Positions 2,252 to 34,118 of a stretch of DNA of 64,000 bases are shown piece by piece; within the stretch, counting starts at the first letter, position 1; every line of letters begins with the position of its first letter. Origin of the DNA: Mucilaginibacter saanensis (GTDB taxonomy: Bacteria; Bacteroidota; Bacteroidia; Sphingobacteriales; Sphingobacteriaceae). The notes beneath the pieces were generated by a model, which worked only from the letters and a program-made list of their open reading frames with translations, made no database searches and was not told the origin of the DNA. The stretch is taken from the NCBI RefSeq assembly GCF_014200575.1, contig NZ_JACHBZ010000011.1, positions 62,001-126,000 on the forward strand, given 5' to 3'. The translations under genes and the position numbers were made by a program.

Positions 2252-2297
2252 AAATAGCTTTTGGCCTTAAACGCTCGTTTTGGGTCGAAAGCTATTT
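2252..2297. terminator. Hairpin between convergent obgE and the polysaccharide locus
   Basis: AAATAGCTTTTGGCC (2252-2266) pairs with GGTCGAAAGCTATTT near 2283-2297 with two mismatches. It lies between the obgE stop and the convergent gene ending at 2292, whose stop codon lies inside the right arm. It is a plausible bidirectional terminator, though the T-tracts are short. Confidence 0.5.
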
Positions 2298-3863
2298 TGC
2301 TGAATAGAGCACATAATCATTACTCAGCATATCCATCTTGAAGCCCTTATAACCGGGGAAACACTTGCGTATAATATTTGATTTCGGTCCCATGTAACTT
2401 GCTGGTAGCAGAATAAATATAGGCCCGGCATGACCCTTATGGGCATAATCGTCATAATCAATCCGGATATCAGAATCAATAGGATCTAAGGTAACTATAC
2501 GGTTATGGTTTATCTCCAGCCCCAGATCAGGACTGACGAATACAAAAAGCGCATTGCTGTTCTTTTTGTCCAGGTCCATGATATAATTTAACGAGGGCTG
2601 GTCAATAAATATTTGTGCCAGGCCTGATGTACCCCTCGCGCTTACCGTTTTGTTTTGACGGTAACCCGGTAAAAAATACCGGAAGCTTAAAAAGGCAATT
2701 CCAAAGCAAACCAAGCCAAATGCAAGCCTGTAGGACACGTTTAGTCGGCTTATGAGGTAAACAACGCCCGGTGTTATTAATAATCCGATAATGCGCAGGT
2801 GCCTTGCTTCGTAAGAGATATTGGCCTGCCTTAAAAAGTTATAACCAAAAAATATTACAGACACTACGTAAAAAACGATGACCATGCGGCTGTAGCTTTT
2901 ATTGGGGACATACCGTGTGATGGCTGCAATGAGTAAAATACTTACTACTGCCGACAGCAATAAGGTAACCAACGACCAAAACGGACTAAATATACTTACA
3001 TCATTATGGAGTATTATGCCATGTAATATGTCATCTAAGGAGAAACCGGCCAGTAGAGGCGATGCCAGCGGGAAGCTGAAGGTTTCCCAGGTTAGTTTTA
3101 TACCCATGCCGCCCGATGCCGGGTTTATACCCTTTGAGAGGTAAAAAACATAAATAATTGCTAAGGATATTGCAGCGGGTATGCCTATCCAGATCCCCTT
3201 TTTTATCCAGGCTACCACTGCTGTATTGCCTGCCGATAGTTTGAGCCACAGGTAAAAACAACCTGCGCCGTACATCCACAAAAAAGATGATTTGCAGAAA
3301 AAGCCGATGCAGCCCGAAAGCAGCAGAAATACAGCCAGTTTCCAACCAGTTTTGTCAATGGCAACACAGCCATATAAAAACCACCCCGCAAACCCGAAAA
3401 GTAAAACTTCGCCTCCATTATAAAACACGTAGGGAACCACAAAGCCCTGTTGGCACGCAATAACAGCCACGCTTACGGCAGCAATAGTAGCTGTAAAACC
3501 TGCCTTCCTAAAAAAGGAATAAAAGCCAGCTAAGCCCAGCAATGTAAAAACAATGGTGGTAACAGCAGCGGCCCTGCCGGTGTTAATACTCAAAATACTT
3601 TTGAAAAAGTAAGGAACCAGATATTGCCCCGGCGACCACCATGATAAAAATTCGGAGTAATCCTTGGCTACATCGGCAGGATCAGGCTTAACAGCCATAT
3701 TAAATCCGCTGCCCATTTGCATTTTACGCATTACCTGAAAACCCCAGCTGGGATCAGGAAAAAGCGAGGTAGGATACAGCAAGATCATGACACCCAATAT
3801 GATTACTATAATGCCTAAGGCGGCTAATATCAATTTATGGGTGTAAGGTTTTTGTAAGGGCAT
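2292..3863 (-). CDS. Polytopic membrane protein, possible GT-C fold glycosyltransferase
   Basis: A 523-residue protein with roughly ten or more hydrophobic segments and a C-terminal soluble domain of about 120 residues. After the first transmembrane helix comes a long extracytoplasmic loop with acidic residues (SLFPDPSWGF, then LSWWSPGQYLVPYFF). That layout resembles the first loop of GT-C enzymes such as ArnT/GT39, which use lipid-linked sugars outside the membrane. I do not recognise a specific family, so the enzymatic role is inference. It is the most promoter-distal gene of the locus, 6 bases downstream of the acetyltransferase gene, and belongs to the distal module with the exosortase-fused glycosyltransferase and the Wzy-like protein. 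Confidence 0.55.
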   Translation of the reverse strand: MPLQKPYTHKLILAALGIIVIILGVMILLYPTSLFPDPSWGFQVMRKMQMGSGFNMAVKPDPADVAKDYSEFLSWWSPGQYLVPYFFKSILSINTGRAAAVTTIVFTLLGLAGFYSFFRKAGFTATIAAVSVAVIACQQGFVVPYVFYNGGEVLLFGFAGWFLYGCVAIDKTGWKLAVFLLLSGCIGFFCKSSFLWMYGAGCFYLWLKLSAGNTAVVAWIKKGIWIGIPAAISLAIIYVFYLSKGINPASGGMGIKLTWETFSFPLASPLLAGFSLDDILHGIILHNDVSIFSPFWSLVTLLLSAVVSILLIAAITRYVPNKSYSRMVIVFYVVSVIFFGYNFLRQANISYEARHLRIIGLLITPGVVYLISRLNVSYRLAFGLVCFGIAFLSFRYFLPGYRQNKTVSARGTSGLAQIFIDQPSLNYIMDLDKKNSNALFVFVSPDLGLEINHNRIVTLDPIDSDIRIDYDDYAHKGHAGPIFILLPASYMGPKSNIIRKCFPGYKGFKMDMLSNDYVLYSAK

Positions 3864-3869
3864 AATTAA

Positions 3870-4433
3870 TTAAACTTCGGTTAGGCTAATATAGCGTTCC
3901 CGAACCTTTATTGCAGGATTTCCCTGATAAATACTATAAGGCTCCAGGTTTTTTGTTGCTACCGACCCACTGGTAAGTACGGCATGGCTTGCCGCAATGA
4001 CACCCAGGTTTACAATGGCGCCGGCGCCTATCCATACACCATCTTCCAGCGTGAGCCCCTTGGTTATCAGGTTAAAGCTGTTTGTTTTATAGTCATGGCT
4101 GCCGGTAAGCAGCATGGCGCCTTGCGAAAGGCATACATTGGCCCCGATATTGATCATGACCAGGCTATCTATCCATACGTTTTCGCCTACCCAGCTTTGG
4201 TCGCCAATACTCAAAAACCACGGGTATTTTATATTTACACACGGTTTTATAGTTACTTTCTTGCCAATAGTTGCACCAAACATCCGCAATAAAAATGTCT
4301 TAAGGCTACTTGACGGAAAAAGGCTGCTTTTAAAGAAAACAGCATTTACGTAATACCATAAAAACCTTTTTAACGCATTGCCACCAGGATGGAAAGGATG
4401 ATTGTTGTAAGCAGCAAGATTGGTTTTATGCAT
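3870..4433 (-). CDS. WcaF-like left-handed beta-helix O-acetyltransferase
   Basis: A 187-residue hexapeptide-repeat acyltransferase. Imperfect hexapeptide turns run from about residue 50 (ATIGKKVTIKPCVNI) to about 165, with the catalytic-type segment LTGSHDYKT and the C-terminal QGNPAIKVRER typical of WcaF/NodL-like enzymes of colanic acid and exopolysaccharide synthesis. Such enzymes transfer acetyl from acetyl-CoA to a hydroxyl of a sugar in the lipid-linked repeat unit, in the cytoplasm. The start overlaps the end of the upstream glycosyltransferase-exosortase gene by 8 bases, implying translational coupling. The acceptor sugar cannot be told from sequence. Confidence 0.85.
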   Translation of the reverse strand: MHKTNLAAYNNHPFHPGGNALKRFLWYYVNAVFFKSSLFPSSSLKTFLLRMFGATIGKKVTIKPCVNIKYPWFLSIGDQSWVGENVWIDSLVMINIGANVCLSQGAMLLTGSHDYKTNSFNLITKGLTLEDGVWIGAGAIVNLGVIAASHAVLTSGSVATKNLEPYSIYQGNPAIKVRERYISLTEV

Positions 4434-5868
4434 ATTGGTTAGTGAAGCGGTCGTTTTGTTTCACCCAAAAATACAGGCTGACCATAACAAGTATATAAAG
4501 AATGATGTTAAAAATGGTATGATGATCAATAATTTGGTTAGCCTTTTTATTCCAGAAAAGAGCCAGCAACACGAAGCGTATAATGTTTAAAAACTGGATG
4601 CAAAAAATGCCTGCTGCAAGAAATATAACTTTATGTTTTAGCTTTTGCGGGTAAGCGATAATAAAAGCGGTGAAAAAACTCATAAGCCTTAAACCCAAAC
4701 AGTCATAAGCTAATCTGATAGCGCCTTTACCGGCAACCAGCAAATCAATATGGTTGTAAATAACGCTAAAGCCCAGCCAGCTTAAAATTTGTGCGCTGCC
4801 TGATAATAATAGTGTGCGCAAGCCTTGTATGTAATTTAAATGATTGGCTAAAAATGCACTGTAATAATTTCCGGGACTGGTAATGCCTAAAAACCAAATG
4901 TGGAAATAGTAAAAGATAATGAATATGACCACGAATTTAATGGCAAATTTAACGGGCGAGAACGGATTGCTTTGAACGCTTGCTTGTTTGCTTTTCAGGA
5001 TTTCATCAATTTTTACGTCAACCACGAGCCTAAACCAAAATCCTTGTAAAAAATGGAATATGATACCCGTGCGCCCATCCAGTATACCTAATTGAAAAAT
5101 CATGCGGTATGTAAAATAAAGCGTGGGGCGCATATAGCGTGGGAGTTGCCACCACAGTTGCTTTAGCCAGGCCGTACGTTCATCTGGCGAGCCGGACAAG
5201 GATGGCTTTAGGGTTTGCTGCCGTAGGTTTTGCATGCGCTCTACCTCTTCCTGGGCAAGCAGATCACTATAGCGGTTATGTTTATCTATCCAGAAACTGA
5301 TATGATTTTCTTTCAGGTTCTCTTCCAGGATATGACCTTGTTTCCAGATAACTGTTTTGCCGGGAACAATGAAACGGTGATCCATGTTTTCATTCAGGTC
5401 TGAATAACCTGCATTATACCTGAACATTTTAAGCAAATAAAACGGATAGTATCCACCGTGTTTTATCCATCGGCCTTTGAAATAGTTTTTCCGGTTAAAG
5501 TAAATACCGTTAACCTGTTGATAGTCCTCATTATTAAAACTAATCAGCAATGCTGTTAGTTCAGGCGTAACAATGTGATCCGCATCCAGGCAAATAACCC
5601 AGGGTGTTGTTATTTTAAAGTTTTTTAAAGCATAATCCCACTGGTTAGGGTGGTTGATAAATGCGTGCTGCAAACAGGTGGCACCGGCATGCTGCGCTAT
5701 GCTCAGTGTATCATCAGTACTGCCGGAGTCGAGCACAAAAAGAGGTGCATTTAAACCGGCAATTGAGTCAAGCAAGCGGGGTAAATGTAGCTGCTCGTTA
5801 TAGGTAAGTATGATAAATGAGTAAGGGGCTCTCAATTTAAGGTTGCTTTGATGATCATTGATTTCCAA
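4426..5868 (-). CDS. GT2 glycosyltransferase fused to an exosortase-like membrane domain
   Basis: One 480-residue chain with two parts. Residues 15-290 are a family 2 glycosyltransferase: FIILTYNE at the start, DSGSTDDT at 47-54, LDADH at 94-98 and a later H-x-E-x region, related to the WaaE/KdtX-like branch. Residues 305-470 form about five to six transmembrane helices carrying the residue pattern of exosortases/archaeosortases: Cys390 in AYDCLGLR, Arg431 in NIIRF and His449 (or 450) in IDHH. The Cys-Arg spacing of 41 residues is what I recall for the ArtA family. Exosortases cleave proteins bearing a C-terminal sorting signal and attach them to a surface polymer. The reading frame is continuous. 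Neighbours are a Wzy-like protein and a WcaF acetyltransferase, suggesting an XrtY-like module (name from memory, not checked). Confidence 0.8.
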   Translation of the reverse strand: MEINDHQSNLKLRAPYSFIILTYNEQLHLPRLLDSIAGLNAPLFVLDSGSTDDTLSIAQHAGATCLQHAFINHPNQWDYALKNFKITTPWVICLDADHIVTPELTALLISFNNEDYQQVNGIYFNRKNYFKGRWIKHGGYYPFYLLKMFRYNAGYSDLNENMDHRFIVPGKTVIWKQGHILEENLKENHISFWIDKHNRYSDLLAQEEVERMQNLRQQTLKPSLSGSPDERTAWLKQLWWQLPRYMRPTLYFTYRMIFQLGILDGRTGIIFHFLQGFWFRLVVDVKIDEILKSKQASVQSNPFSPVKFAIKFVVIFIIFYYFHIWFLGITSPGNYYSAFLANHLNYIQGLRTLLLSGSAQILSWLGFSVIYNHIDLLVAGKGAIRLAYDCLGLRLMSFFTAFIIAYPQKLKHKVIFLAAGIFCIQFLNIIRFVLLALFWNKKANQIIDHHTIFNIILYILVMVSLYFWVKQNDRFTNQYA

Positions 5869-6452
5869 AAGTAGGGGATACGGCCACAGCCTTTAAAGGC
5901 CGTAACGGTAAAACCACCGTTGGTTAATACATTGGTGAGTGTTTTTCGCGACCATAATTTAATGTGCCCGCCAAGCCAAAGCGGATTCAGGTGACTGTCC
6001 CATTTGTTAAAAATACTGAGCATCAGGTTTTTCAGATAGCCATGATAAGGGGTGGTGATGATCAGTTGTCCCCCCTGTTTTAATTGCTGGCCGCAAAAGG
6101 TTATAAATGCCTCGGGGTTATATAAATGTTCAATAACCTCGGTTGATATAATGGTGTCAAACGTAATATTTTGTAATTGAAGGGGCAAGGCATCGGCCGA
6201 AAGATCCTGTACGAAAAAACGGTCGCGATGTTCTTTTTGTGCAATGGCTATACCTTTTTCAGAAGCATCGGTGCCATAGGCATTAAAGTTTTGTTGAATT
6301 AAGTAGCTTACTAAATAGCCATTGCCGCAGCCCAGATCAAGTATGTATTTGTTTTCATTTGGCTTAAGTAATTGTAATAAAGGCTTTAACTGGTAACCTA
6401 AATTATGGGTAGGTGCGGCATTCTGAAAGCCATAATCTTTATAATCAGCCAT
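5832..6452 (-). CDS. Class I SAM-dependent methyltransferase
   Basis: A 206-residue cytoplasmic methyltransferase. Motif I is ILDLGCGNGYLVSYL near residues 38-52, followed by an acidic residue in YGTDASE and the post-motif segment FDTIISTEVIEHLYNPEAF, matching the Methyltransf_11/UbiG-like group. In this setting it probably methylates a sugar of the repeat unit or a glycan end, but the substrate is unknown. It overlaps the upstream GT4 gene by 8 bases and the downstream glycosyltransferase-exosortase gene by 37 bases, so the three are almost certainly co-translated. Confidence 0.85.
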   Translation of the reverse strand: MADYKDYGFQNAAPTHNLGYQLKPLLQLLKPNENKYILDLGCGNGYLVSYLIQQNFNAYGTDASEKGIAIAQKEHRDRFFVQDLSADALPLQLQNITFDTIISTEVIEHLYNPEAFITFCGQQLKQGGQLIITTPYHGYLKNLMLSIFNKWDSHLNPLWLGGHIKLWSRKTLTNVLTNGGFTVTAFKGCGRIPYFWKSMIIKATLN

Positions 6453-7584
6453 TAGTGATGATGTTATGGTACATGGTAATGTACTGTTGAACCAGTTGAT
6501 CTTCGTTAAAATCGACCAGGATTTTTTCAGGAGCCGTTTTGCGGATATGGCTCAGTTGCTGCTGCTTATTGTTGATGAGGTTTAGCTGCAGGGCAATATC
6601 CGCAGGATCAAGTTCGCATTCCCAGCCTAAATTGTTTTGTGTAACATAGGTTGAAAGGCCCACAAACTTGCTCAGTAACACAGCAGTTCCCTGACTTAAA
6701 CTTTCGATAACTACGTTGCCAAAGTTCTCGTCGTGGGAGGGTAGTATAAGCAGGTCATGCGCAGCTAATAAACCAAACTTATTATCGTTTTGAAAGCCTG
6801 CCCATTGTATATAATGATCAACTTTATTTAGTTTGGACAGGGCTTTGAGTTCCGCTATATAGTTAGCTTCACCATCGCCCGCTATGGTAAGCGTGTATGG
6901 AAACGTTATCAGTGGTAGTGCCTTGATCAATATATCCAAGCCTTTTTTTTCTTCGATCCGGGAAAGGAAAATTAATCTTAACGGTGAACTTGTGTTTTTA
7001 TTAGTGATGTGATCTGAAGAGGAAAGCCTCACAAAGTTTGGAATATTGGTAATGTCTTTAGGGCTGACTACGCTATTTATTGCACTTTTTTCCCTGTCAG
7101 ATGTTACATGAAAGTGGCACCTTTTTAATAAGGGTTTACTTACAAAGTAATGGATCAACGACTTAATTCTCTTGTTTTTATTTTGAAAAGAATAAGGACT
7201 CAAAGTACCCCTCGCAGATACCAGAACCGGCACATCGCGCATCAAAGCAATCATACAGGAGAAAACCGAAACCAGATTCCACCAGGCGTGGATGTGTACC
7301 GCATCATAACCTTTTATAGTTTGCCATACTGCTTTCAACAGCGCTGGCGATAGGTGGCTGTGGTCTTTGGTGATGCGTTTATAGTAGGTTACCGTTACCC
7401 CGTCAATGTTAACTGATTGATCTGGCACAACCTCCAGCTCGCGTATTCCGTTTGCTGTTGTGGTATATACGTCAATAAAACAGCCAACCTTTGCTAATTG
7501 CTCGCTAAGCATAGACACCGACATGGTTGGGCCGCCGTAAACGTAAGCGGGTTTGTAGGACGCCGAAATTTGTAATATTTTCAA
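6445..7584 (-). CDS. GT4 family glycosyltransferase
   Basis: A 379-residue GT-B fold glycosyltransferase. The N-terminal acceptor domain starts MKILQISASYKPAYVYGGPT, and the C-terminal nucleotide-sugar domain contains LIFLSRIEEKKGLDILIKAL and the E-x7-E signature ENFGNVVIE at about residues 285-293. It would transfer a sugar with retention from an NDP- or GDP-sugar to the lipid-linked glycan on the cytoplasmic side. It sits between the Wzy-like gene (4-base overlap) and the methyltransferase gene (8-base overlap), within the exosortase module. I recall a named glycosyltransferase family associated with exosortase Y loci but cannot confirm membership here. Confidence 0.88.
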   Translation of the reverse strand: MKILQISASYKPAYVYGGPTMSVSMLSEQLAKVGCFIDVYTTTANGIRELEVVPDQSVNIDGVTVTYYKRITKDHSHLSPALLKAVWQTIKGYDAVHIHAWWNLVSVFSCMIALMRDVPVLVSARGTLSPYSFQNKNKRIKSLIHYFVSKPLLKRCHFHVTSDREKSAINSVVSPKDITNIPNFVRLSSSDHITNKNTSSPLRLIFLSRIEEKKGLDILIKALPLITFPYTLTIAGDGEANYIAELKALSKLNKVDHYIQWAGFQNDNKFGLLAAHDLLILPSHDENFGNVVIESLSQGTAVLLSKFVGLSTYVTQNNLGWECELDPADIALQLNLINNKQQQLSHIRKTAPEKILVDFNEDQLVQQYITMYHNIITNG

Positions 7585-8990
7585 ACTTCCTCTAAAATGT
7601 TGGTTACGGTTAATATTTTATGGATAGCCAACATACTAATAAAGCTCCAAAAAACAGAATTGATCAAAAACTCAAAACTGATACCCCGCCACATGATCTG
7701 GAATAATCCGCTGAAAATGAGTGCTGTTCCTAAAATGTATCCGCCAAAAAGTTTTTCGGCCTTAAGCGCGATTGACTGAGCGATGGCTCCATAAGCAAAC
7801 AGGCATAAAAAGATACCTAAAGCCCCGCCTGATAAATAGGCATCAACTATAAAAGCTGGTTTTGCTGAAACATTGGAGGCTCGGTTAACTACTCCAGCGT
7901 CATAAACCCGTTCCATAATTAAATCCTCCGTGCTGGGTTTTGATGGCCAGAAGATTCGCGGAATAAGTGCTGTGCCGGATTGCTTGAGCAGGTCGAAATA
8001 ATAATAGTCGACCTGTTTTGGTGTTGACTGTACAAATTTGGTAAACATATCAATTTCGCTCAGCCGGAACGCCAGAAATCCCCAATTTGAATTATCATCA
8101 TCCGATGAATCGTTATTTAACGCAGCATCTAAAGCTAACTGACTTGCTTCATCAGCATTTGTTTCGCCAGACCAGGCATTTTGTCTGAAAATACGATTAT
8201 AGGTGGGCAGAAACATAAACAACAACAGCAGAAGCGGGACGAAGGTAAATGCAACAGCTTTTTTGTAATTGGGATACAGGAATACACCCAGTACCAGAAC
8301 GCTTACAATAATGGGTTCTTTAAAGCCTGAAAGTAAGGCCTGGTAAAAGTTAAAAAAATAAAAACTGAGGCAAATTAAGGTATTGCCGATCTTTTTTAAC
8401 GGAATGGCAAATGCAAGCGCCAGTGTGCCGGCAATAAAGCTAAGGGAGTTTAACTGGAAATAAAACTGAGATAACCCCGGAATCCGCAAAAAAAGCACAG
8501 ACACCGGAAAGCTGATAACGGCAAACATCATCAGTAAGTTGGCCAGCTTTTGTTTATCAATATAGTATTTTTTTTTAACAGGATAATCCATGAAAACCAG
8601 GATTCCGGTAACAAACGCCGCATGCCCCAAGCAATAATAGCGTTGGCACTGGGCAGTAAGCTGTAACCTTTCCTGATCTATCAGGACATAGTTTAATCGC
8701 ACAAAGTTTTGATAGCCCATTACATCCATAAAATAAAAGATGGAAGTACACGCCATATAGCCCGCAAAAATGATTTGAACCAAAAAAATAGGCCGCATCA
8801 GCTGTTCGGCTATGCTCCGGTCATCAGGTAAAGATTTTACCCAGCCGCTTAATGTTAGGAAAAATATAAGAAAAGACCCCAGCCAGGCAATGAAATATGA
8901 AAGTACAGGATCGCTTTTAAAGAGTAAGGAAAGGAGGAAAGGGAGGAATAGCCCTGATAACCTAATAGCCAAAGGTCTATTAACTATCAT
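7581..8990 (-). CDS. Wzy-like polysaccharide polymerase, exosortase-module type
   Basis: A 469-residue membrane protein with about ten or more transmembrane helices and one large loop (about residues 265-365) containing FRQNAWSGETN, an acidic stretch and PRIFWPSKPS. This layout is that of Wzy/O-antigen ligase-like proteins, whose big periplasmic loop takes part in joining repeat units from undecaprenyl carriers. It directly precedes the GT4 gene and lies three genes from the exosortase-fused glycosyltransferase; Wzy-like proteins tied to exosortase loci are known in Bacteroidetes. A run of nine adenines in the coding strand (8568-8576) encodes the KKK before YYIDK. Polymerase activity is inferred from topology and context. 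Confidence 0.7.
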   Translation of the reverse strand: MIVNRPLAIRLSGLFLPFLLSLLFKSDPVLSYFIAWLGSFLIFFLTLSGWVKSLPDDRSIAEQLMRPIFLVQIIFAGYMACTSIFYFMDVMGYQNFVRLNYVLIDQERLQLTAQCQRYYCLGHAAFVTGILVFMDYPVKKKYYIDKQKLANLLMMFAVISFPVSVLFLRIPGLSQFYFQLNSLSFIAGTLALAFAIPLKKIGNTLICLSFYFFNFYQALLSGFKEPIIVSVLVLGVFLYPNYKKAVAFTFVPLLLLLFMFLPTYNRIFRQNAWSGETNADEASQLALDAALNNDSSDDDNSNWGFLAFRLSEIDMFTKFVQSTPKQVDYYYFDLLKQSGTALIPRIFWPSKPSTEDLIMERVYDAGVVNRASNVSAKPAFIVDAYLSGGALGIFLCLFAYGAIAQSIALKAEKLFGGYILGTALIFSGLFQIMWRGISFEFLINSVFWSFISMLAIHKILTVTNILEEV

Positions 8991-10140
8991 AGTTTAGATT
9001 GATAATTCTAAAAAGAGAAATTACCTGTTGTTCAAAACTCCATGGAATAATTTTATTTTTAGCATTAGTTCCTAAAAGTTCTAAATTAATTCTATCATTT
9101 GTAAGTAATTTTAATTTTTTGACGAGATCGGTTAGATTTCTAGCTTCAAAGACATCCCCATTATGGCCGCTTGTAATTAAATCTATTGCGCAACCAACTT
9201 TATCAGATACTAATACACATTTTTTAGATGCCATTGCTTCATTTACTGATAGTCCCCATGTTTCGTTCGGGCCTTTTGAAGGTAAACAGAATAAATCACA
9301 ACTTTGATAAATCACAGGGAGATAGGATTGATTTTGGAAAGGCATAAAGTGTATATTACAAATGCTTTTTGCTTTGCTACGAAGTTCATTTTCTAGTGTC
9401 CCACTACCAACATATAGTAAATGTAAGTTTGCTCTTTTGATTTCTATAAATGCAGTAAGCAATAATAGAGGATCTTTTTTTTCTTCAAATTTTCCGGCAA
9501 AAAGGATAAGTATATCGGTTTTTTCTATGCCTAAAGACTGTCTTAGTTTTTGAACCTCAACCGCTCTATCAACAGAGAATCTTTTATTATCAATAGCATG
9601 GGGGGCAAAATGTAATTGATTTTCTTTTAAGCCATAGCGTTTAAAATAGTCTTTATTATTTGCTCCTGTATATAAGGCATAATCTATGTGTCTATATAAC
9701 CATCTTAGAAAGATGTATCTAAGTATATTTCTAAACCAATGTTGTTCATCAAGCAGAGTAGAATCTCCTCGAAAAACGATAGGTATTTTATTTTTGAAAT
9801 AACGCATAACCTTAAAGTGGCTTTCATAAGCCCAGCCATAAACAAATAGAACATTGGGCCTCCATTCTTTAATCAGGTCAATGAGTTTAGGCGTAATAAT
9901 TCCTTTAAAATGATGAGATCCCGGTTTTGAAGATGAGTTTTCGACCCAGGCATAATCATAGCCATCAAGTAATGGAATGTCCCAATTGATTTTTTTCTTA
10001 AAACCGAGATCAAATTTGTTTATAGCATTCTTTCCTAATGTATAAAATACTTTTACTTCAAGATTCTTTTGCTGATTTAAGAGTTTAAATACCGGAGCGT
10101 AGTATTGGATTGGATGGGTAATTATAATTACAATCTTCAA
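8980..10140 (-). CDS. GT4 family glycosyltransferase
   Basis: A 386-residue GT-B enzyme: N-terminal MKIVIIITHPIQYYAPVFK, a central LILFAGKFEEKKDPLLLLTAF opening the donor domain, and the E-x7-E motif ETWGLSVNE at residues 293-301. It should act on the cytoplasmic face in repeat-unit assembly. Its start overlaps the end of the upstream gene by 4 bases. This is the last gene of the AT-rich block that makes up the centre of the locus; composition rises towards normal just downstream in the Wzy-like gene. The sugar specificity is unknown. Confidence 0.87.
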   Translation of the reverse strand: MKIVIIITHPIQYYAPVFKLLNQQKNLEVKVFYTLGKNAINKFDLGFKKKINWDIPLLDGYDYAWVENSSSKPGSHHFKGIITPKLIDLIKEWRPNVLFVYGWAYESHFKVMRYFKNKIPIVFRGDSTLLDEQHWFRNILRYIFLRWLYRHIDYALYTGANNKDYFKRYGLKENQLHFAPHAIDNKRFSVDRAVEVQKLRQSLGIEKTDILILFAGKFEEKKDPLLLLTAFIEIKRANLHLLYVGSGTLENELRSKAKSICNIHFMPFQNQSYLPVIYQSCDLFCLPSKGPNETWGLSVNEAMASKKCVLVSDKVGCAIDLITSGHNGDVFEARNLTDLVKKLKLLTNDRINLELLGTNAKNKIIPWSFEQQVISLFRIINLNYDS

Positions 10141-11459
10141 GTGTTAAGATTTTTATTAATTACTGAATTAAAGAGTAAGCATTGATGTTTTGTTAAGTTT
10201 GATGCAGCATATTTGTCCATGATATCGATATTATACTCTTGATAATTTATAGTTTTGTTTATTATTTTTTTAAGAAAATCAATTATCTTATTTGTTAGCA
10301 AAGTATCGGTATAGCTATATGTATAATTGGCCGCGAATTTATTTAATTCTTTAATAGCAGGACTATTAGGATGAAAAATTGATAATATTGGTTTATGGGT
10401 TAGTAAATAAGGATATATCTTAGATGCTGTATATTTAGGATCATCAGAGCCTGGTATGAATAACGAGTCAGCCTGTTGTAAAATAGATAGGGCATGGTAA
10501 TAATTTAATCGATCAGTAGATTCTATAATATAGTCCTGTAGATTGTATTGAATTGCAAGCGGTAAAATGATTTTTTTTCCTTTACCCGATTGAGCATAGC
10601 TGGTTCCTAAAAAATAGACCCTTATATTTTTAAAAAGATTATAATCATTGAATAGTCCCTGCTTTAATGCGGCAAATAATGGTTTTATAGCATTATACAT
10701 ATCTGCTCCTCCTCTACCTATGCAAACTATGTTTATATGATTGGAATATAGAGGTGTATTAAAATTGATTTTAAATTTGTTAGCTATTTCGGTATCGAAT
10801 TTAAAAATGCCAAAAGTGATTGTTTTTGAAGGAATATTTTTTATTTGTGGATATCTCTGTTTTAGATCATTTATGTAATCTTTTGAAACGCTAATTAATC
10901 CGTCTACTTTTTTCATGGCTATAGGTTCTAGCCATTTATTTAATCGATGTGAAAACCAATGTTTAACGGGTCTTTGGTGTTTAGGTTTATTATTGTAATA
11001 ATCAGAATGCCAAGGATCTTGCATATCTATTACATAAGGAATATTAAATCGTTGTTTCCAATATGCTCCCAATATGCAAATCGGGAATTGAGTAGTTGAA
11101 AAATATATAAGGTCAAACCTTTCAAGCCTCAATAACTTATTAACTTTTTTTTTATAGGAAAAAATGGACCTCAATGCTATACTGCCTATTCCTAATTTAG
11201 AGGTCAATTTTTTATTTAGAGCTCTGATTTTATGTATTTTAATAGAGTTTGGAATGCTTTCTATCAATAAAGGATCTTGATTAATATCAGTATAGTTTTC
11301 ATGAATAGATACTATTTCAACATCCCAGCCAAAATCAATAAAATAAGGTAAGCTTGTTCTAATCCGTTGCATATCTGCTGTATTAGAAGGAGGGAAATAG
11401 GGCGAGATTATGAGTAAACGTTTCAAATCCAAGTTTATAATAAGCTTATAATTATTCAA
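10137..11459 (-). CDS. Probable GT-B glycosyltransferase
   Basis: A 440-residue protein whose first half resembles GT4 enzymes (LLIISPYFPPSNTADMQR, then FDLIYFSTTQFPICILGAYW and YVIDMQDPWHSDY). The second half has a GT1-like donor domain but a weak active site: where the E-x7-E motif normally lies it reads GSDDPKYTASKIYPYLLTHKPIL, resembling the 'sugar transferase, PEP-CTERM/EpsH' style of GT4-related enzymes that recognise the donor with D-x-K. It is very AT-rich and contains a nine-base homopolymer at 11145-11153. The start overlaps the upstream gene by 8 bases. Fold assignment is fairly firm, specificity unknown. Confidence 0.75.
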   Translation of the reverse strand: MNNYKLIINLDLKRLLIISPYFPPSNTADMQRIRTSLPYFIDFGWDVEIVSIHENYTDINQDPLLIESIPNSIKIHKIRALNKKLTSKLGIGSIALRSIFSYKKKVNKLLRLERFDLIYFSTTQFPICILGAYWKQRFNIPYVIDMQDPWHSDYYNNKPKHQRPVKHWFSHRLNKWLEPIAMKKVDGLISVSKDYINDLKQRYPQIKNIPSKTITFGIFKFDTEIANKFKINFNTPLYSNHINIVCIGRGGADMYNAIKPLFAALKQGLFNDYNLFKNIRVYFLGTSYAQSGKGKKIILPLAIQYNLQDYIIESTDRLNYYHALSILQQADSLFIPGSDDPKYTASKIYPYLLTHKPILSIFHPNSPAIKELNKFAANYTYSYTDTLLTNKIIDFLKKIINKTINYQEYNIDIMDKYAASNLTKHQCLLFNSVINKNLNT

Positions 11460-12681
11460 CCAAATAAGTATTTATTATTTCTAAATACTTAATGCTTTCT
11501 TTTTGCCAATTTATTGTGTTTTGACCTAAATTGAAATTTTGTTTCTTGGTTTTATCAAGAAGTTCTCGATTTTGATTATATCGTTTAAGGATATTTGTCA
11601 ATTCAACGGAGTTTTTGTACAATTCCCCTATGTTATGATATTGCGACATAAATTCATGCTGTGATAGTGTATCAGTTGCAATAATCGCTAAACCACTTTG
11701 TAAATAGGTGAAGAGTTTGTTAGTTAAACAGATATTACGGTTCAAAGGTGTGTAAGATTCTGCAGCCAAACCAATATCGAACTTGGATGCCAATTCAAAT
11801 ATCTTATTGGGAGATAAAGAATTATGGAATATTATTTCAAGATTCTCAGATTTTTTCTTTTTAATATTGGCTAAGAGGTGAATTTTATATTCATCTGCAA
11901 TATTTCCGAGCAAATGGAATGTTATTGTAACATCACTGTTGCAAATTGCCTTTATAGCAATTTCGATACCACGATTGGGCCCAATCGTTTGTGAAAACCA
12001 GAAAATTTGTAATGGGGCATGGATATTAGGTATATTATCGAATTTATTTGTTTTAGGGAAAACATTTAAAATTGTATTAACTTGTCTATTAAATAAATTA
12101 GCGTATTTTTCAGCAATTAGAGGACTTGCTGCATTTATGAAATCTGTCAAAGGGATATATTTTTCTTCTATAAGCATCTTTAATATTACGTCTACATTAT
12201 TGGGATCATTACTTATTTCGTTTCGGTGAAAATCTTCAGCATCAAATCCGCATTTTGCGTTTGTATATTGGGCCGCTTTTACGGCAATAGGTAAAGCCCC
12301 AAGGTTATGACCGAAATATAAATCAGCCCTAAATAGTTTTGCTCTCTTTAGTTGCCAATAATAATTACGATTTAAAACAATACAAGCGAGAGCCTTTGAT
12401 TGGTTTACTTTGATAATTAAATTGATTAGTTTTAAAGTAAGTCCTGTATAAAAACGCCGTAGTCGTGACTTAAAGGATAATTTTGTCCAATCAAGGCAAT
12501 CATAGGTCCACTGAGAATGATTTAAAAGTATCTCCTTATCATAAGGAATAAGATAAGACATATATTGAGTAAAAATAATGTGTATTTGATAATTAGCCTC
12601 AGATAAAGTTGTGGCTTCTTTAACCAATCTTGGATTGCTGGAAATATGTCCTGGGGTGATAAAGCAGACTTTTTTTTTCAA
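11452..12681 (-). CDS. Probable GT-B glycosyltransferase
   Basis: A 409-residue protein beginning VCFITPGHISSNPRLVKEA, the nucleotide-fold opening of GT4-type enzymes. The C-terminal half contains IFWFSQTIGPNRGIEIAIKA and LTNKLFTYLQSGLAIIATD, where the classical E-x7-E is replaced. It is thus a divergent GT4-like transferase. The coding sequence is strongly AT-rich. The start codon is followed by a run of nine adenines (12670-12678 on the plus strand as T), so slippage would disrupt the protein at its second codon. It is separated from the upstream gene by 109 bases holding a small hairpin. Confidence 0.72.
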   Translation of the reverse strand: MKKKVCFITPGHISSNPRLVKEATTLSEANYQIHIIFTQYMSYLIPYDKEILLNHSQWTYDCLDWTKLSFKSRLRRFYTGLTLKLINLIIKVNQSKALACIVLNRNYYWQLKRAKLFRADLYFGHNLGALPIAVKAAQYTNAKCGFDAEDFHRNEISNDPNNVDVILKMLIEEKYIPLTDFINAASPLIAEKYANLFNRQVNTILNVFPKTNKFDNIPNIHAPLQIFWFSQTIGPNRGIEIAIKAICNSDVTITFHLLGNIADEYKIHLLANIKKKKSENLEIIFHNSLSPNKIFELASKFDIGLAAESYTPLNRNICLTNKLFTYLQSGLAIIATDTLSQHEFMSQYHNIGELYKNSVELTNILKRYNQNRELLDKTKKQNFNLGQNTINWQKESIKYLEIINTYLVE

Positions 12682-24421: not shown

Positions 24422-25146
24422 AGTTGATATATCTCTACTTCAGGGGCATTTTCTGCCGGAGGAATGGAAAATCTTTGCATACTGTGCGTGCCGAACGACG
24501 CCTGTTTAAACAACGCTTCTAATGAGGCTTCGCTTAGCCAATCTTCAACAGGTTGACCGGGAGTAGAATACTTTCTCCACTCTTCTTCTGCATCTTTTCT
24601 TGGAGTTGTCACTATTAAAAATCCGTTCTTTTTAAGTAGTGTTTTTATCTCATTTAAAAACTCACTCTTTTTATCGTCAGGTATGTGTTCAATCACTTCT
24701 GAGCAAACAATAATGTCGTAACAGGCAATTTTACCGTCTGCTAATAAGTCTTTTGTGGTGCCGCAAATTAAATTAAGATCCTGGAATAGTGTTTGGGCGT
24801 ACTGAATTACTGGTTTAATGGGTTCAATACCGGTAACATCACCATAATCAGATAAAAGATTACTTAACCAGCCCCTTCCACATCCTAAATCCAGTAGCTT
24901 AGCTTTTGTTTTATTATTTGCATGAGTATTATACCCCTTAATATAATACATGAAATTTTCGATAATAACCCACCTTAATTGTTCTTCGTAATTTGGTGTT
25001 GGCTTATTCCAGTCTGCACTTTGGGTAAATAAACGGGTGTAATACTCTTCCTCTGTCGGCTCTATAATGTCAACGACATCTTCATTCGTATTGGTTACGT
25101 TTTTAAGCCGTTTCAGCGAGGTTTTCAGACTCAGATAGATTCCCAT
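24400..25146 (-). CDS. Class I SAM-dependent methyltransferase
   Basis: A 248-residue cytoplasmic methyltransferase with motif I LLDLGCGRGWLSNLL (near residues 86-100), acidic VTGIEPIKP, and DIIVCSEVIEHIPDDKKSEFLNEI as in the Methyltransf_23/UbiG group, then LIVTTPRKDAEEEWRKYS. It follows the ABC exporter ATPase gene with a 16-base overlap. Methyltransferases beside wzt genes often cap the non-reducing end of O-polysaccharides and so set chain length; here that is a hypothesis from position. Confidence 0.85.
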   Translation of the reverse strand: MGIYLSLKTSLKRLKNVTNTNEDVVDIIEPTEEEYYTRLFTQSADWNKPTPNYEEQLRWVIIENFMYYIKGYNTHANNKTKAKLLDLGCGRGWLSNLLSDYGDVTGIEPIKPVIQYAQTLFQDLNLICGTTKDLLADGKIACYDIIVCSEVIEHIPDDKKSEFLNEIKTLLKKNGFLIVTTPRKDAEEEWRKYSTPGQPVEDWLSEASLEALFKQASFGTHSMQRFSIPPAENAPEVEIYQLWLVQNN

Positions 25147-26375
25147 GAAATGTTATTGATGTAGAGTTTGTTTAGTTTGCTATCTATGGCAAAAGCCGTC
25201 TGTTGCTCATACCTTTCGGTAATATCTAACAGTAAGGCATCTGATATCACCTCCAAGTCGGCTAATCTGTCGCCTAAAAAAATATCAATTTTATATTTGC
25301 CCTCTAATAATGGCGCGTCGGATATGGTGATCAGAAACTTGCCCTGAGTTATGTTTCTAAAGCTGGAGGCATAGTTTTCATAGTGCCTGTTATTCAAGGC
25401 AATAATAGGAGTGTCTGATAAATCCTTGATCATAAACCCTAATACCATATCCTGTATTACACAGGCTGAGGACAGCGTAACTTCGAGCAAAATTTTGGTA
25501 CGTGCCGATGATTTATCAAAAATGGTATAAGCGGTTGCTTGTTTTATAAGACCATCTCCCTCAAAGTAGTTTTTTATTTTTTTACTCTCGGTATAGGTGT
25601 AGGCTTTTACACATTCATTAATGTTTCCTTGTAAAAGCAAATTGCCATTGTTTAATAATATCCCCTTGTTGCACAATTGAGCTATACTGCCCATATTATG
25701 GCTGACGAATAATACCGTTCGGCCTTCGCCTTTACTAACCTGCCCCATTTTGCCAAGGCATTTTTTCTGAAACTCGCTATCCCCAACGGCTAATACTTCA
25801 TCCACTATCAGCGTTTCCGATTCGAGGTGGGCCGCTACGGCAAAAGCCAGACGCACGTACATGCCCGACGAATATCTTTTTACCGGTGTGTCGATATACC
25901 TTTCAACGCCCGAGAAATCCACGATCTCATCAAATTTTCTCTTGATCTCGGCTTTACGCATACCCAGTATGGCGCCGTTTAAAAATATGTTTTCCCTGCC
26001 GGTAAGTTCAGGATGAAAGCCGGTTCCCACTTCCAGCAAACTGGCTATACGCCCCTTTACTTTTACTGATCCGGTGGTGGGGGAGGTAACGCGGCTTAAT
26101 ATTTTAAGTAATGTACTTTTGCCCGCACCATTACGGCCAATAATACCCACGGCACTGCCTTGCTCAATATCAAAGTCCAAATCTTTCAAACTCCAAACAA
26201 CATCGCTGTTCCCTTTTGTAGTTCTGTCGTTAGTTTCTCCGATTTTCAAAAACGGATCCTCTTTACCCTTTAACCTGGCCCAGTAGCGCTCTAAATCGCG
26301 CGATATGGTGCCGGTACCAAAATCGCCGAGTTGATATGCTTTTGAAAGATTTTCTACCTTAATTGCAGTAGCCAT
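25131..26375 (-). CDS. wzt: ABC polysaccharide exporter ATP-binding subunit with C-terminal carbohydrate-binding domain
   Basis: Inner-membrane-associated ATPase of a Wzm/Wzt (ABC-2, TagGH-like) glycan exporter. The nucleotide-binding domain has Walker A GIIGRNGAGKSTLLKI, the short signature RYSSGMYVRLAFA, Walker B TLIVDEVLAVGD and the switch histidine in VLFVSHNM. Residues from about 270 to 414 form an extra beta-rich domain of the Wzt C-terminal type, which in studied systems binds the modified end of the finished chain. At 414 residues it has the extended length. It starts one base after the permease gene ends. The C-terminal domain fits with the next gene being a possible end-capping methyltransferase. 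Confidence 0.93.
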   Translation of the reverse strand: MATAIKVENLSKAYQLGDFGTGTISRDLERYWARLKGKEDPFLKIGETNDRTTKGNSDVVWSLKDLDFDIEQGSAVGIIGRNGAGKSTLLKILSRVTSPTTGSVKVKGRIASLLEVGTGFHPELTGRENIFLNGAILGMRKAEIKRKFDEIVDFSGVERYIDTPVKRYSSGMYVRLAFAVAAHLESETLIVDEVLAVGDSEFQKKCLGKMGQVSKGEGRTVLFVSHNMGSIAQLCNKGILLNNGNLLLQGNINECVKAYTYTESKKIKNYFEGDGLIKQATAYTIFDKSSARTKILLEVTLSSACVIQDMVLGFMIKDLSDTPIIALNNRHYENYASSFRNITQGKFLITISDAPLLEGKYKIDIFLGDRLADLEVISDALLLDITERYEQQTAFAIDSKLNKLYINNISWESI

Positions 26376-27242
26376 TTATACAGTATCAACAAAGGATTTT
26401 TCAACCCTATTAAATATGATGGTGCCGGTTATTAAAATAATCACAGTACTTATAAAGCTATAGCCTATCAGGTCCCAGCTAAAACTGCCCTTGCCTAAAA
26501 AGCCATATCTGAAAGTTTCTATGATGGCAGTGATGGGGTTAAATTTTACCAGCCAGCTGTAAGCAGGGTATTTTAATTCGGCAACCGAAAGCGGGAATAT
26601 TACGGTTGTAGTGTACATGAATAACGGTACACCAAAAGAAACTATAAAGGCCAGGTCGCGATATTTCGTAGTAATGGCCGATATGATCATTCCCATCCCT
26701 AAACCCAAGGCAGCTATCATCACAATAAGTAATGGCAGCAATAGCAAAAATATGTTTGGAGCAATAGCTGATCCTTTAAGCAGATAGGTAATGTACAGGA
26801 TAATAAAAAGCAAAAACTGCACGCCAAATTTAACCAGGTTTGATAGCACTATACTCAATGGCATAATTAGCCTGGGGAAGTAAACTTTTCCAAGCAAAGC
26901 CGAGTTGTCTTTAAAAACGGTTGATGTTTTTGTGAGGCACTCCGCAAAATAATTCCATACAATGGTTCCGGCTAAGTAAAATAACGGTTTAGGCAGTCCG
27001 TCAACAGGTATGCCTGCAAGGTTGCCAAACACAAGAGTATAAAATAATATGGTGATGGCAGGTTGTACAAAAAACCAGATAGGGCCTAAAATGGTCTGCT
27101 TGTAAAATGAAACAAAATCGCGCCTAACCAATAGTAAAAGCAGGTCGCGGTATTGCCAAACATCCCGGAGTTTTAAATCCAGCAGATTGTTTTTTGCTGT
27201 TATTTCAATATCCCAGTTTTCCTGTGTGGTTAAAGTATTCAA
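26376..27242 (-). CDS. wzm: ABC polysaccharide exporter permease subunit
   Basis: A 288-residue ABC-2 type membrane protein with six hydrophobic segments. The amphipathic N-terminal LRDVWQYRDLLLLLVRRDF, followed by QTILGPIWFFVQPAITILFYTLVFG, is the characteristic opening of Wzm/TagG/KpsM proteins. Together with the ATPase encoded directly after it, it would move an undecaprenyl-linked glycan across the inner membrane. The locus has no recognisable Wzx flippase, so this pair is the only visible route across that membrane. The start overlaps the upstream GT4 gene by 4 bases. Confidence 0.92.
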   Translation of the reverse strand: MNTLTTQENWDIEITAKNNLLDLKLRDVWQYRDLLLLLVRRDFVSFYKQTILGPIWFFVQPAITILFYTLVFGNLAGIPVDGLPKPLFYLAGTIVWNYFAECLTKTSTVFKDNSALLGKVYFPRLIMPLSIVLSNLVKFGVQFLLFIILYITYLLKGSAIAPNIFLLLLPLLIVMIAALGLGMGMIISAITTKYRDLAFIVSFGVPLFMYTTTVIFPLSVAELKYPAYSWLVKFNPITAIIETFRYGFLGKGSFSWDLIGYSFISTVIILITGTIIFNRVEKSFVDTV

Positions 27243-30806: not shown

Positions 30807-33230
30807 TTATTTAAACCATCGTTTTATATTCCACCATTTGGCTTTGTCATCATCCAAATAATAGCCTGAACCTTCGTAGCCGCTATAGTCAGAGTAATAA
30901 TAATAGCGTGTACCGGAACTGTCGCCGGTAAATTTGGTTGTGTAATACCTTGAGTGTAATAATTCCTCTTCAAATGCATTCAGTACTATTACCGTATTGT
31001 CAAGATGGTACTCATGAGCAATACGCTGCGGTATGGTGGCTGCATAAAACTTTGACCGGCCAGAGCGTATCACAAAAACATTAATATCACTTATCCTGAT
31101 AAGCGGGATGGCGTCTGATACCAGGCCAATAGGAGCGGTATCAATCATGATAATATCATATTTTAGTTTTAGCTGCGCAATTAAGGTGGTCATCCGGGCG
31201 CTGTGCAACAGTTCAGATGGGTTGGGCGGCACCGGACCCGAAATAATAAAATCAAGATTTGACTGCTCCGAGTGTAAAATAATCTCGTCAAGCTCGGCCT
31301 GGTGGGCCAGGTAATTGCTCAGCCCCAGGTCATTAGGAACGAGGAAAGTTTTGTGCAGGCGCGACCGTCTTAAATCTGCCCCAATCAGTATCACCTTTTT
31401 ATCAATAAGCGATAGTGTGCTTGATAAGTTAACAGCAACAAATGATTTACCTTCGCCGGCCACCTCTGATGTTATGCAGATAACCTTGCTTTGTTTTTCT
31501 GAGGATAGAAAGCTTAAGTTGGTACGTACCGATCTTACCGATTCGGCAAATATGGATTTTGGTTTGGCGAGGGCTAAAACCTGGCCGTTGTTTTCATCAA
31601 TATGTTCAGGGAATTTTCTGATAACGCCCAGTATGGGTATTGATGTAAGGCTTTCAATGGTTTCCTTATCATAAATGTATGGGTTTAGCACCCTTATCAC
31701 AACTATAAGCCCGAGGCCAATCATCAAGCCTAAAATAATGGCATTGCGGTGTATTTCAGGCTCATTAGGCGATACTGCATTTAAGTTGGGCTGCGACGGC
31801 TCAATAATGGTAGCCCCCGGGAGTATGCCGGCCCTGCTTATTTGCGCCTCCAATTTTTTTTCTGATAAAAACGAGTACACCTTGTCATTAATCTCAAAAT
31901 CGCGCTGCAGACTTACCAGATCGCGCTGGGCGGCGGGTAAAGCCAAAATGGTTTGGTTAACCTCCGTAAGTTTACTATCAAGGTAAGCTATGTTTTTTTC
32001 AATACCAGTGCGGATAACCCTAATGTTGTTGAGCGCCGTTAGTTTAATTTGTAAAATTTGCTGGTTAATGTCAAGTATAGGCTGCGAGTTATTGTTATAG
32101 GTTTTCAACAAGGCGTTACGCTCCTGTATCAGATTGTCAAGGTGCCCCACCAGGGTTTCTAATGATGTGCTGCTTGATGTGCCTACGGCAAAATTCAGGT
32201 TAACATTATCCTTTTCCCGGGTGATTTGATCTTTTAGCTGGTCAATGGCTATCAGCTGTATTTTTAATAAGGATTTACTTGATTCAATTTCTGCAGCTTT
32301 AGCAACCGAGGTTGTTGAGGCTGAGCTTACATCCAGTATTTTTGACTTTTGTTTATACTTTTCAATGGAGTTTTCGGACCCCCGCACCTCTGTTGAAAGG
32401 AATGACAGCTGGCTATCAATAAAATCAATCATCTGTGAGGCCGACTGTGTTTTTTGCGTGCGGTCAAAAAGTACGTACTCATTCATGATAGCATTGAGTA
32501 TGTCAGATGCAAATTGCGGGTTGGAATCCGTTTCCTGAAGGGCAATAATATTGGAATTTTTTGCCGTTTCGCCGGTTTGCAAGCCGCTTTTTACGCGTTC
32601 TATAAAATCCTCGGGTATGTTGAATTTAAACAGGTAAACCGGATTTTTATCGGTTCCCCCCGGCGGGTATTTGATAGTAAAACTTGTAGGCCCGATGGTT
32701 ACCGCGGCATCATAGTTAAAGGTGTTTTGAATTTCTTTACCGCCAATTTTGTATGATAGTAAAAACGAACGTTTGTTAATCCCTTTAAAGTTTATCAGGT
32801 CATGATAAAAGTTTAAACTATCAAACTTTATCAGTTCAATATTAAGTGGTTTTGACGGGTATACCTCGCTGGTACGTACCCGGCCCATCAGGTAAAAACT
32901 TATCCGGTAATCAAGGTCCTTAATGGCGCTTAGTATCAGGTTGCGGCTTTGTAGTACCGAGGTGATGCTTTGTATTTTTGAGGGGCCACGTTCGGGAACG
33001 GTCATTACTGTTATAAGGTCAGAGATCTCTGATTTTTTTTCTTCAATTTTTAAGGTGCCCGATGTTGCGTACGTTTTTGGCGTATACCATAAATAGGTAT
33101 AGGATATCAGCATGGTTACGCCAACAGATGCAGCTATCCAATACCAGCGGCTTAGTAATATTTTGCCAATCTTAAAATAGTCTATTTCCTGGTTGGGTAG
33201 TTTTCGCTGAATTTTTTCTGTCTCTTCCAT
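30807..33230 (-). CDS. Wzc-like polysaccharide co-polymerase / BY-kinase
   Basis: An 807-residue inner-membrane protein of the Wzc type. A Wzz-like N-terminal region has a first helix at about residues 33-52 and a long coiled-coil periplasmic part, with a second helix near 500. The cytoplasmic BY-kinase domain has Walker A SEVAGEGKS (Lys595), Walker A' VILIGADLRRSR and Walker B IIMIDTAPIG. The tail is a tyrosine cluster (RYYYYSDYSGY, then GYYLDDD), the usual autophosphorylation site. It controls chain length and works with the Wza-like exporter, whose gene ends where this one starts. Some GNVR-type periplasmic features are present (DINQQILQIKLTALNNIR). Confidence 0.93.
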   Translation of the reverse strand: MEETEKIQRKLPNQEIDYFKIGKILLSRWYWIAASVGVTMLISYTYLWYTPKTYATSGTLKIEEKKSEISDLITVMTVPERGPSKIQSITSVLQSRNLILSAIKDLDYRISFYLMGRVRTSEVYPSKPLNIELIKFDSLNFYHDLINFKGINKRSFLLSYKIGGKEIQNTFNYDAAVTIGPTSFTIKYPPGGTDKNPVYLFKFNIPEDFIERVKSGLQTGETAKNSNIIALQETDSNPQFASDILNAIMNEYVLFDRTQKTQSASQMIDFIDSQLSFLSTEVRGSENSIEKYKQKSKILDVSSASTTSVAKAAEIESSKSLLKIQLIAIDQLKDQITREKDNVNLNFAVGTSSSTSLETLVGHLDNLIQERNALLKTYNNNSQPILDINQQILQIKLTALNNIRVIRTGIEKNIAYLDSKLTEVNQTILALPAAQRDLVSLQRDFEINDKVYSFLSEKKLEAQISRAGILPGATIIEPSQPNLNAVSPNEPEIHRNAIILGLMIGLGLIVVIRVLNPYIYDKETIESLTSIPILGVIRKFPEHIDENNGQVLALAKPKSIFAESVRSVRTNLSFLSSEKQSKVICITSEVAGEGKSFVAVNLSSTLSLIDKKVILIGADLRRSRLHKTFLVPNDLGLSNYLAHQAELDEIILHSEQSNLDFIISGPVPPNPSELLHSARMTTLIAQLKLKYDIIMIDTAPIGLVSDAIPLIRISDINVFVIRSGRSKFYAATIPQRIAHEYHLDNTVIVLNAFEEELLHSRYYTTKFTGDSSGTRYYYYSDYSGYEGSGYYLDDDKAKWWNIKRWFK

Positions 33231-34012: not shown

Positions 34013-34060
34013 ATGATAAAGAAGTAGGGCTGCTAAGTAATTTAGAATTGGGTTTGATTT

Positions 34061-34093
34061 CAAAAATACATAATTTGCGGGTATATATATTTG
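34061..34093. promoter_or_regulatory. Candidate divergent promoters of the polysaccharide locus
   Basis: Two -7 like elements lie between the divergent genes. TATTTTTG on the minus strand (complement of 34061-34068) is 49-56 bases before the wza-like start; TATATTTG on the plus strand (34086-34093) lies 26 bases before the TTG start of the GT2 gene. Both match TAnnTTTG exactly, but neither has a well-placed TTTG -33 partner. The short shared region means the two directions may compete. Confidence 0.4.
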
Positions 34094-34118
34094 TATTCCC
34101 CTTTTCAATTTGTACGGT

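Follow-up and report, generated by a model that had tools for sequence, protein, structure and literature searches.

A GT2 glycosyltransferase joined to an exosortase Y domain in an exopolysaccharide locus of Mucilaginibacter saanensis and its relatives

We analysed a 64,000-nucleotide stretch of Mucilaginibacter saanensis DNA (contig NZ_JACHBZ010000011.1, positions 62,001 to 126,000; hereafter the window), in which one open frame on the minus strand encodes a GT2 glycosyltransferase domain (PF00535) followed by a full exosortase Y (XrtY) domain (NF046083), so that the single-chain glycosyltransferase-exosortase protein proposed in an initial annotation made from the sequence is confirmed. The reading to which we lean, tentatively, is that of a two-domain inner-membrane protein that brings together the cytoplasmic sugar-adding and the periplasmic exosortase steps of one exopolysaccharide pathway, the two being tethered in some lineages. 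The frame opens with TTG and gives 480 residues; a database copy (P0002) has 469, starting 11 residues downstream of that TTG, and with its start at residue 12 the gene would overlap the methyltransferase gene upstream of it by 4 bases.

All three exosortase profiles matched the C-terminal part above their cut-offs, as the initial annotation had led us to expect: NF046083 (exosortase Y: 224.9 bits, cut-off 160, E = 5.5e-67, residues 305-469, model positions 4-168 of 168), TIGR04178 (exosortase/archaeosortase superfamily: 48.3 bits, cut-off 23), and PF09721 (26.0 bits, cut-off 25.7). Judged by these profiles, the window protein is a member of the exosortase/archaeosortase superfamily and an exosortase Y. 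The domain was matched at E <= 1e-5 in 14 of 14 diverse fused proteins, TIGR04178 included, three of which score below the NF046083 cut-off. A sequence search for relatives of the XrtY domain in the PDB returned none.

The window protein carries the motifs C390-L-G, N428-I-I-R431, and H450-T-I-F-N454. Cys390, Arg431, and His449 had been named as the exosortase residues, with a Cys-to-Arg spacing of 41. The cysteine and arginine stood, neither of them varying in any of 29 diverse XrtY rows, and so did the spacing (41 in 51 of 59 loci, 42 in the other 8), but the motif histidine is His450, one residue on. H450 is invariant in the same 29 rows and in all 120 nearest proteins, and H449 is found in 119 of the 120, with Gln in P0106 and in locus L101; in two closer alignments both histidines are invariant. 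The motif pattern fits 120/120 nearest proteins and 58/59 loci, L103 differing at the residue after the histidine. Hydropathy and charge over the alignment place a basic loop (residues 407-415) between the helix after C390 and the helix of R431, with R431 near the far end of its helix. Since this loop separates the flanking helices, C390, R431, and H450 are predicted to lie on one side of the membrane, opposite the loop and presumably periplasmic. The helix ends of the AlphaFold model agree with this topology, the model confidence (pLDDT) being only 65 at residues 441-450.

At the N-terminal end, PF00535 matched residues 17-138 (E = 8.9e-12, above the Pfam gathering score), and a structure search with residues 10-255 of the AlphaFold model, the only segment searched, matched GT-A enzymes (ThuS, SunS, WrtF, TarS, TarP, and SpsA); the C-terminal helices of the domain are taken from the model. 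These neighbours share only 15-20% sequence identity with the window GT2 domain, and none of them is known to have an exosortase part. The GT2 domain is conserved across the 14 fused proteins, including the DxD motif (D95, A96, D97), which in GT-A enzymes is expected to bind the sugar nucleotide and metal. An NCBIfam profile search gave no model above cut-off for the N-terminal GT2.

The architecture is not unique to the window. A frameshift or assembly error merging two genes might be suspected, given that GT2 and XrtY more often occur as two genes, but we regard its chance as negligible: of the 120 nearest proteins listed, 119 have the length of a fusion, and they stem from many independent assemblies; 33 loci are fused in a named set made up of the best 80 of 253 loci. 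The fusion is therefore a real feature, and NCBI records already use the name 'exosortase Y' for several of the fused relatives. The fused gene is also carried by several type strains. The named set holds a further 39 separate loci and 8 in which GT2 occurs without XrtY (fused, separate, and XrtY-less loci number 23, 12, and 1 in Mucilaginibacter and 3, 16, and 4 in Pedobacter; remaining loci other or unassigned); it was retrieved with the fused protein and favours fused relatives, and some of its genomes also belong to the family set described next.

Among 201 genomes of the family, XrtY was matched at E <= 0.001 in 88, above the NF046083 cut-off in 66, and at our working threshold of 100 bits or more in 80. 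XrtY is fused (a frame of 463-514 residues) in only 14 of these 80 genomes and separate in the other 66, which bears out the expectation that an exosortase is normally a gene of its own; unfused XrtY frames have 186-257 residues, except for one interrupted copy. In L096 (9470-10064) XrtY is interrupted by a stop (99 + 94 residues), with the neighbouring GT2 and XYAG1 genes still there. We fetched 60 loci, namely all fused and part of the separate ones, so that fused loci are over-represented, and 59 were usable (14 fused, 45 separate). GT2 adjoins XrtY in 38 of the 45 unfused loci and, with starts set mechanically, the two frames overlap in 27 of the 38 and are mutually out of frame in 31. The adjacent GT2 groups with the fused ones in 33 of the 38 loci and belongs to another single subfamily in 5 (L073, L083, L086, L095, and L108). 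L104 is one of seven loci in which no GT2 was detected, and inspection by eye shows a GT2 of a third kind upstream of its XrtY (2632-3381). The GT2 slot thus looks cassette-like, its content being swapped while XrtY stays.

We defined the GT2 subfamily at 60% identity or more and found it to track XrtY closely: 64 of the 201 genomes have both, 16 XrtY only, 3 GT2 only, and 118 neither (Fisher's exact test: P = 4e-33, kinship among genomes not corrected). In 62 of the 67 GT2-bearing genomes, GT2 is either fused to XrtY or located no more than 500 bases upstream of it. This tight linkage supports adding a dedicated GT2 partner to the XrtY system, and the joining of the two hints at work on the same product.

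Several observations weigh against a pathway shared by the two domains. Where GT2 stands apart (11 genomes), five genomes have no XrtY match, four have XrtY elsewhere (three above cut-off, one at 125 bits), and two have only weak matches (about 64 bits). XrtY is unlinked in two Pedobacter genomes, G588 and G590. In L271, L274, and L277 the acetyltransferase gene begins right where the GT2 frame ends, and in L248 and L255 it follows GT2 across a gap. Sixteen of the 80 XrtY genomes lack this GT2 subfamily, and in five loci the other subfamily fills the slot. Median identity to the window is 70.5% for GT2 (51 loci) and 45.6% for XrtY (57 loci), and in pairs restricted to loci with GT2 over 55% identical XrtY diverges faster in 42 of 42 (median difference 24 points), which argues that the two are not under one common constraint. 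The GT2/XrtY distance correlation is no better than that of other operon pairs: a mirror-tree comparison over 17 loci gave no sign of special co-evolution (partial r = 0.49, against 0.45-0.55 for ten operon pairs). In the search for a substrate, a detector requiring a signal peptide, a C-terminal hydrophobic stretch, and a basic end, for which there was no positive control, found no recurring C-terminal sorting signal in 1.66 of the 6.24 Mb of the genome (27%, window included), and a search with TIGR02595 (PEP-CTERM) found nothing, control genomes being equally silent. The initial annotation had suggested that glycan synthesis and protein transfer are physically coupled; this is borne out in part, the shared chain and the tight linkage being genuine, but the genomes with GT2 standing apart speak against an obligatory coupling. 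The link is not obligatory: in most relatives GT2 and XrtY remain two genes, as a rule with overlapping frames, so that the fusion tethers the two steps but is not required.

Eight of 1318 frames passed the sorting-signal filter, with no common motif by eye. Two of the eight are Wza-like export proteins (one by Pfam, one by eye; window 33230-34108 and G000:C2:50622-51407) that end in a hydrophobic stretch and a short basic tail; at a guess, they probably passed by virtue of their own outer-membrane helix. We also considered a protein of 81-93 residues with a signal peptide and a transmembrane tail (L081, L085, L087, and L093) that looked like an exosortase target, and rejected it because it has no match in the M. 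saanensis genome and is present in XrtY-less genomes (e.g., G006 and G016).

Fused and separate forms are intermingled on the trees. The joint GT2 + XrtY tree (47 loci) requires six changes of the fused label by parsimony, which does not distinguish gains from losses, and at least four of these are forced by well-supported branches; none of 200 bootstrap trees (0%) had a single change. A single fused clade, i.e., one origin with simple descent, was rejected when the 14 fused loci were constrained (log-likelihood difference 367; approximately unbiased test: P = 3e-76). Quick trees of the single domains needed seven changes each, with two (XrtY) and three (GT2) forced by well-supported branches. 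L096 was dropped from all trees, and the five loci with the other GT2 subfamily and the seven without a detected adjacent GT2 were also dropped from the joint tree. The XrtY of another family (L115-L117) is unfused and has no adjacent GT2 detected by BLAST, which suggests that separate genes are the ancestral state and makes repeated fusion the likelier reading, so that GT2 and XrtY apparently joined more than once.

The XrtY system, made up of XrtY, a Wzy-like protein, and XYAG1, is already catalogued in NCBIfam, and all three curated models (NF046083, NF046084, and NF046085) match the window above their cut-offs within one gene run; NF046083, with 168 positions, covers only the C-terminal third of the fusion. 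We found no description of a glycosyltransferase-exosortase fusion, or of a dedicated GT2 partner, in the exosortase literature searched, and an earlier mention is possible.

In EpsH, the XrtA-type exosortase of the PEP-CTERM system, the invariant motifs C-x-G, N-x-x-R, and H-x-x-x-G lie close to the outer ends of three successive helices (PMC1569441). The window XrtY has in common with it C-x-G, N-x-x-R, the conserved histidine, and the setting in an exopolysaccharide locus, but it is far shorter than EpsH, which has at least eight transmembrane segments, and in H450-T-I-F-N454 the histidine is kept and the glycine replaced, for which reason we do not file it as EpsH/XrtA type. Some EpsH proteins are reported to have a C-terminal region resembling EpsI, and four cases of EpsH fused to a CAAX protease have served as a Rosetta-stone argument (PMC1569441); the fused partner in the window protein is instead a glycosyltransferase. 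Archaeosortase A of Haloferax volcanii shows the same distance of 41 residues between Cys173 and Arg214 (PMC9263693) as C390 and R431, whereas its third critical residue is Arg253 rather than a histidine. It carries out C-terminal processing with lipid attachment (PMC9263693, PMC7157517); the sections seen mention no glycosyltransferase domain, and PssA and PssD, of the acceptor pathway proposed for it, are proteins in their own right. The Nostoc hormogonium polysaccharide locus likewise includes an exosortase, cyanoexosortase B (PMC12188702), but it belongs to another phylum and the sections seen describe no glycosyltransferase-exosortase fusion there. XYAG1 scores 166 bits with HpsP (cut-off 550), and the window acetyltransferase 144 bits with HpsU (cut-off 305).

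Exosortases in exopolysaccharide loci have been linked to the association of exopolysaccharide with the surface (PMC1569441, PMC12188702). In Nostoc, a crtB mutant is unable to adhere to its polysaccharide (PMC12188702), and deleting xrtF and its partner gene in Flavobacterium johnsoniae affects surface colonisation and biofilm formation (PMC10936215). By analogy, both phenotypes would be in keeping with a role in the retention of polysaccharide at the surface. The acceptor for substrates of the PEP-CTERM exosortase is described as an unidentified compound (PMC7468200).

The neighbouring genes (Table 1) form a same-strand run that reaches a Wzt/Wzm-like pair, an asparagine-synthase-like gene, and NusG-, Wzc-, and Wza-like genes, with a WecA-like gene beyond on the opposite strand. 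The neighbours of the fusion had been described as normal in base composition, in contrast to an AT-rich cassette, and the module as a stable part of the locus. Both descriptions hold: GC content is 0.40-0.43 in the module and 0.29-0.35 in the 9-25 kb region, and the module is conserved. The AT-rich part nevertheless holds regular members of the XrtY system, because its two GT4 genes (8980-10140 and 10137-11459) have homologues in 44 and 38, respectively, of the 58 other loci, with a median identity near 54%, a median GC content of 0.41, and an order that is often kept, as judged by eye. These neighbour counts take the best BLAST match in a stretch of no more than 20 kb, and so include distant homologues and miss genes farther away. 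Three glycosyltransferases within 8980-12681 have GC contents of 0.29-0.32 (homologues elsewhere: median 0.41-0.42), which may reflect either replacement of this part or a drift towards AT in the M. saanensis genome. The 523-residue membrane protein at the end of the operon matched no Pfam or NCBIfam model and gives the impression, no more, of a GT-C-type enzyme. In other loci a NodU-type carbamoyltransferase-like protein of 574-584 residues, named by eye, follows XrtY (L066, L067, L088, where it is cut off, L090, L092, L096, L097, L110, L111, and L115). XrtY is convergent with obgE, the usual glycosyltransferase genes not adjoining, in L087 (9637-10272), L093 (9712-10332), and L094 (9720-10283); an acetyltransferase gene lies between the two in L087.

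Table 1 Features of the fusion gene and its surroundings (window positions)
Position	Strand	Feature	Basis or remark
2292..3863	minus	523-residue polytopic membrane protein, operon end	Homologues (50-67% identity) in 12/58 other loci
3870..4433	minus	WcaF-type hexapeptide acetyltransferase	NF007797, 227.6 bits (cut-off 192); overlaps fusion gene end by 8 bases
4426..5868	minus	GT2-XrtY fusion protein, 480 residues, TTG start	One open frame; true start may be residue 12
4459..4956	minus	Exosortase Y domain, residues 305-470	NF046083 match
4519..4521	minus	His450 of H-x-x-F-N	Invariant; His449 at 4522-4524
4576..4578	minus	Arg431 of N-x-x-R	Invariant
4699..4701	minus	Cys390 of C-x-G, presumed nucleophile	Invariant
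4984..5826	minus	GT2/GT-A glycosyltransferase domain with C-terminal helices, residues ~15-295	PF00535, GT-A neighbours, AlphaFold model
5578..5586	minus	D95-A-D97 (DxD motif)	D95, A96, D97 invariant in 14/14 fused proteins
5832..6452	minus	S-adenosylmethionine-dependent methyltransferase, optional operon member	PF13489; present in 23/58 other loci
6445..7584	minus	XrtY-associated GT4 glycosyltransferase XYAG1	NF046085, 547.3 bits (cut-off 400)
7581..8990	minus	XrtY-associated Wzy-like membrane protein	NF046084, 758.1 bits (cut-off 420)
8980..10140	minus	GT4 glycosyltransferase, frequent operon member	PF00534; homologue (25-58% identity) in 44/58 other loci
10137..11459	minus	GT4-type glycosyltransferase, frequent operon member	PF13439; homologue (38-61% identity) in 38/58 other loci
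25131..27242	minus	Wzt-like ATPase with Wzt_C and ABC-2 permease, likely glycan exporter	PF00005, PF14524, PF01061
30275..34108	minus	NusG-like, Wzc-like, and Wza-like genes, head of polysaccharide locus	PF02357; PF02706 + PF13614; PF02563
34942..36051	plus	WecA-like sugar-phosphate transferase, probable lipid-carrier priming enzyme	PF00953

If the two domains do serve one exopolysaccharide pathway, the GT-A domain would add one sugar to the lipid-linked precursor of the locus at the cytoplasmic face. The family of the domain, the helices at its C-terminal end, and the neighbouring WecA-like and GT4 genes suggest this role. The Cys390/Arg431/His450 set of XrtY would face the periplasm, as the positive-inside topology and the published EpsH topology both suggest. 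There, XrtY would cut off the C-terminal tail of a secreted protein and transfer the C-terminus so exposed to an acceptor, the most plausible one being connected with the glycan that GT2 helps to make. The domains, their conserved residues, the gene neighbourhood, the linkage of this GT2 subfamily to XrtY, and the mixing of fused and separate forms are observed; the chemistry, a common acceptor, and the substrate are inferred, and transfer of a protein onto the glycan of the locus is possible. An unlikely, more specific version has surface anchoring carried by one chain: GT2 would finish a lipid-linked (linker) glycan at the cytoplasmic face, the glycan would be exported, and XrtY would join the cleaved C-terminus of the protein to that glycan, acting perhaps from the same chain or from a neighbouring one.

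A pathway shared by the two domains has to be weighed against their independence, which is a serious though doubtful possibility. Overlapping neighbours in an exopolysaccharide operon would have been joined by small frame changes, the fusion either fixing stoichiometry or being neutral, with XrtY processing surface proteins, GT2 adding an ordinary repeat-unit sugar, and no intermediate in common. The separate genes often overlap and are mostly out of frame (27/38 and 31/38), so that a small indel is enough to fuse them; the fusion is dispensable, XrtY is unlinked or absent in other genomes, and GT2 and XrtY do not co-vary in any special way. Independence may account less readily for the way in which fused and separate loci repeatedly interleave on the tree and for a GT2 subfamily that tracks XrtY (64/67 genomes) beyond plain neighbourhood. 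It is less likely still than the one-chain version above that XrtY acts on the glycan itself, e.g., as a ligase or acyl-type transferase beside the Wzy-like protein, with no protein sorting. Such an activity would suit a gene that is embedded in a glycan locus and often has an acetyltransferase gene or that of the NodU-like protein after it, and would agree with the silent scans, which covered 27% of the genome with the uncontrolled detector. Against it, C-x-G, N-x-x-R, and the histidine are all kept as in the EpsH family, the archaeosortase with an equal C-R distance (C173, R214) processes proteins, and in L087, L093, and L094 XrtY lies near obgE without the usual adjoining glycosyltransferase genes.

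That GT2 follows XrtY through genomes and has, apparently, fused to it repeatedly points towards a glycan acceptor, in the manner of a Rosetta-stone argument. If anchoring on one chain is true, the glycan made by the exosortase's own partner would be a concrete candidate for the exosortase acceptor, and the fusion puts both active sites on one chain, where each can be mutated singly. If the coupling is only operonic, the analysis still adds to the XrtY system a conserved GT2 that has no NCBIfam family name.

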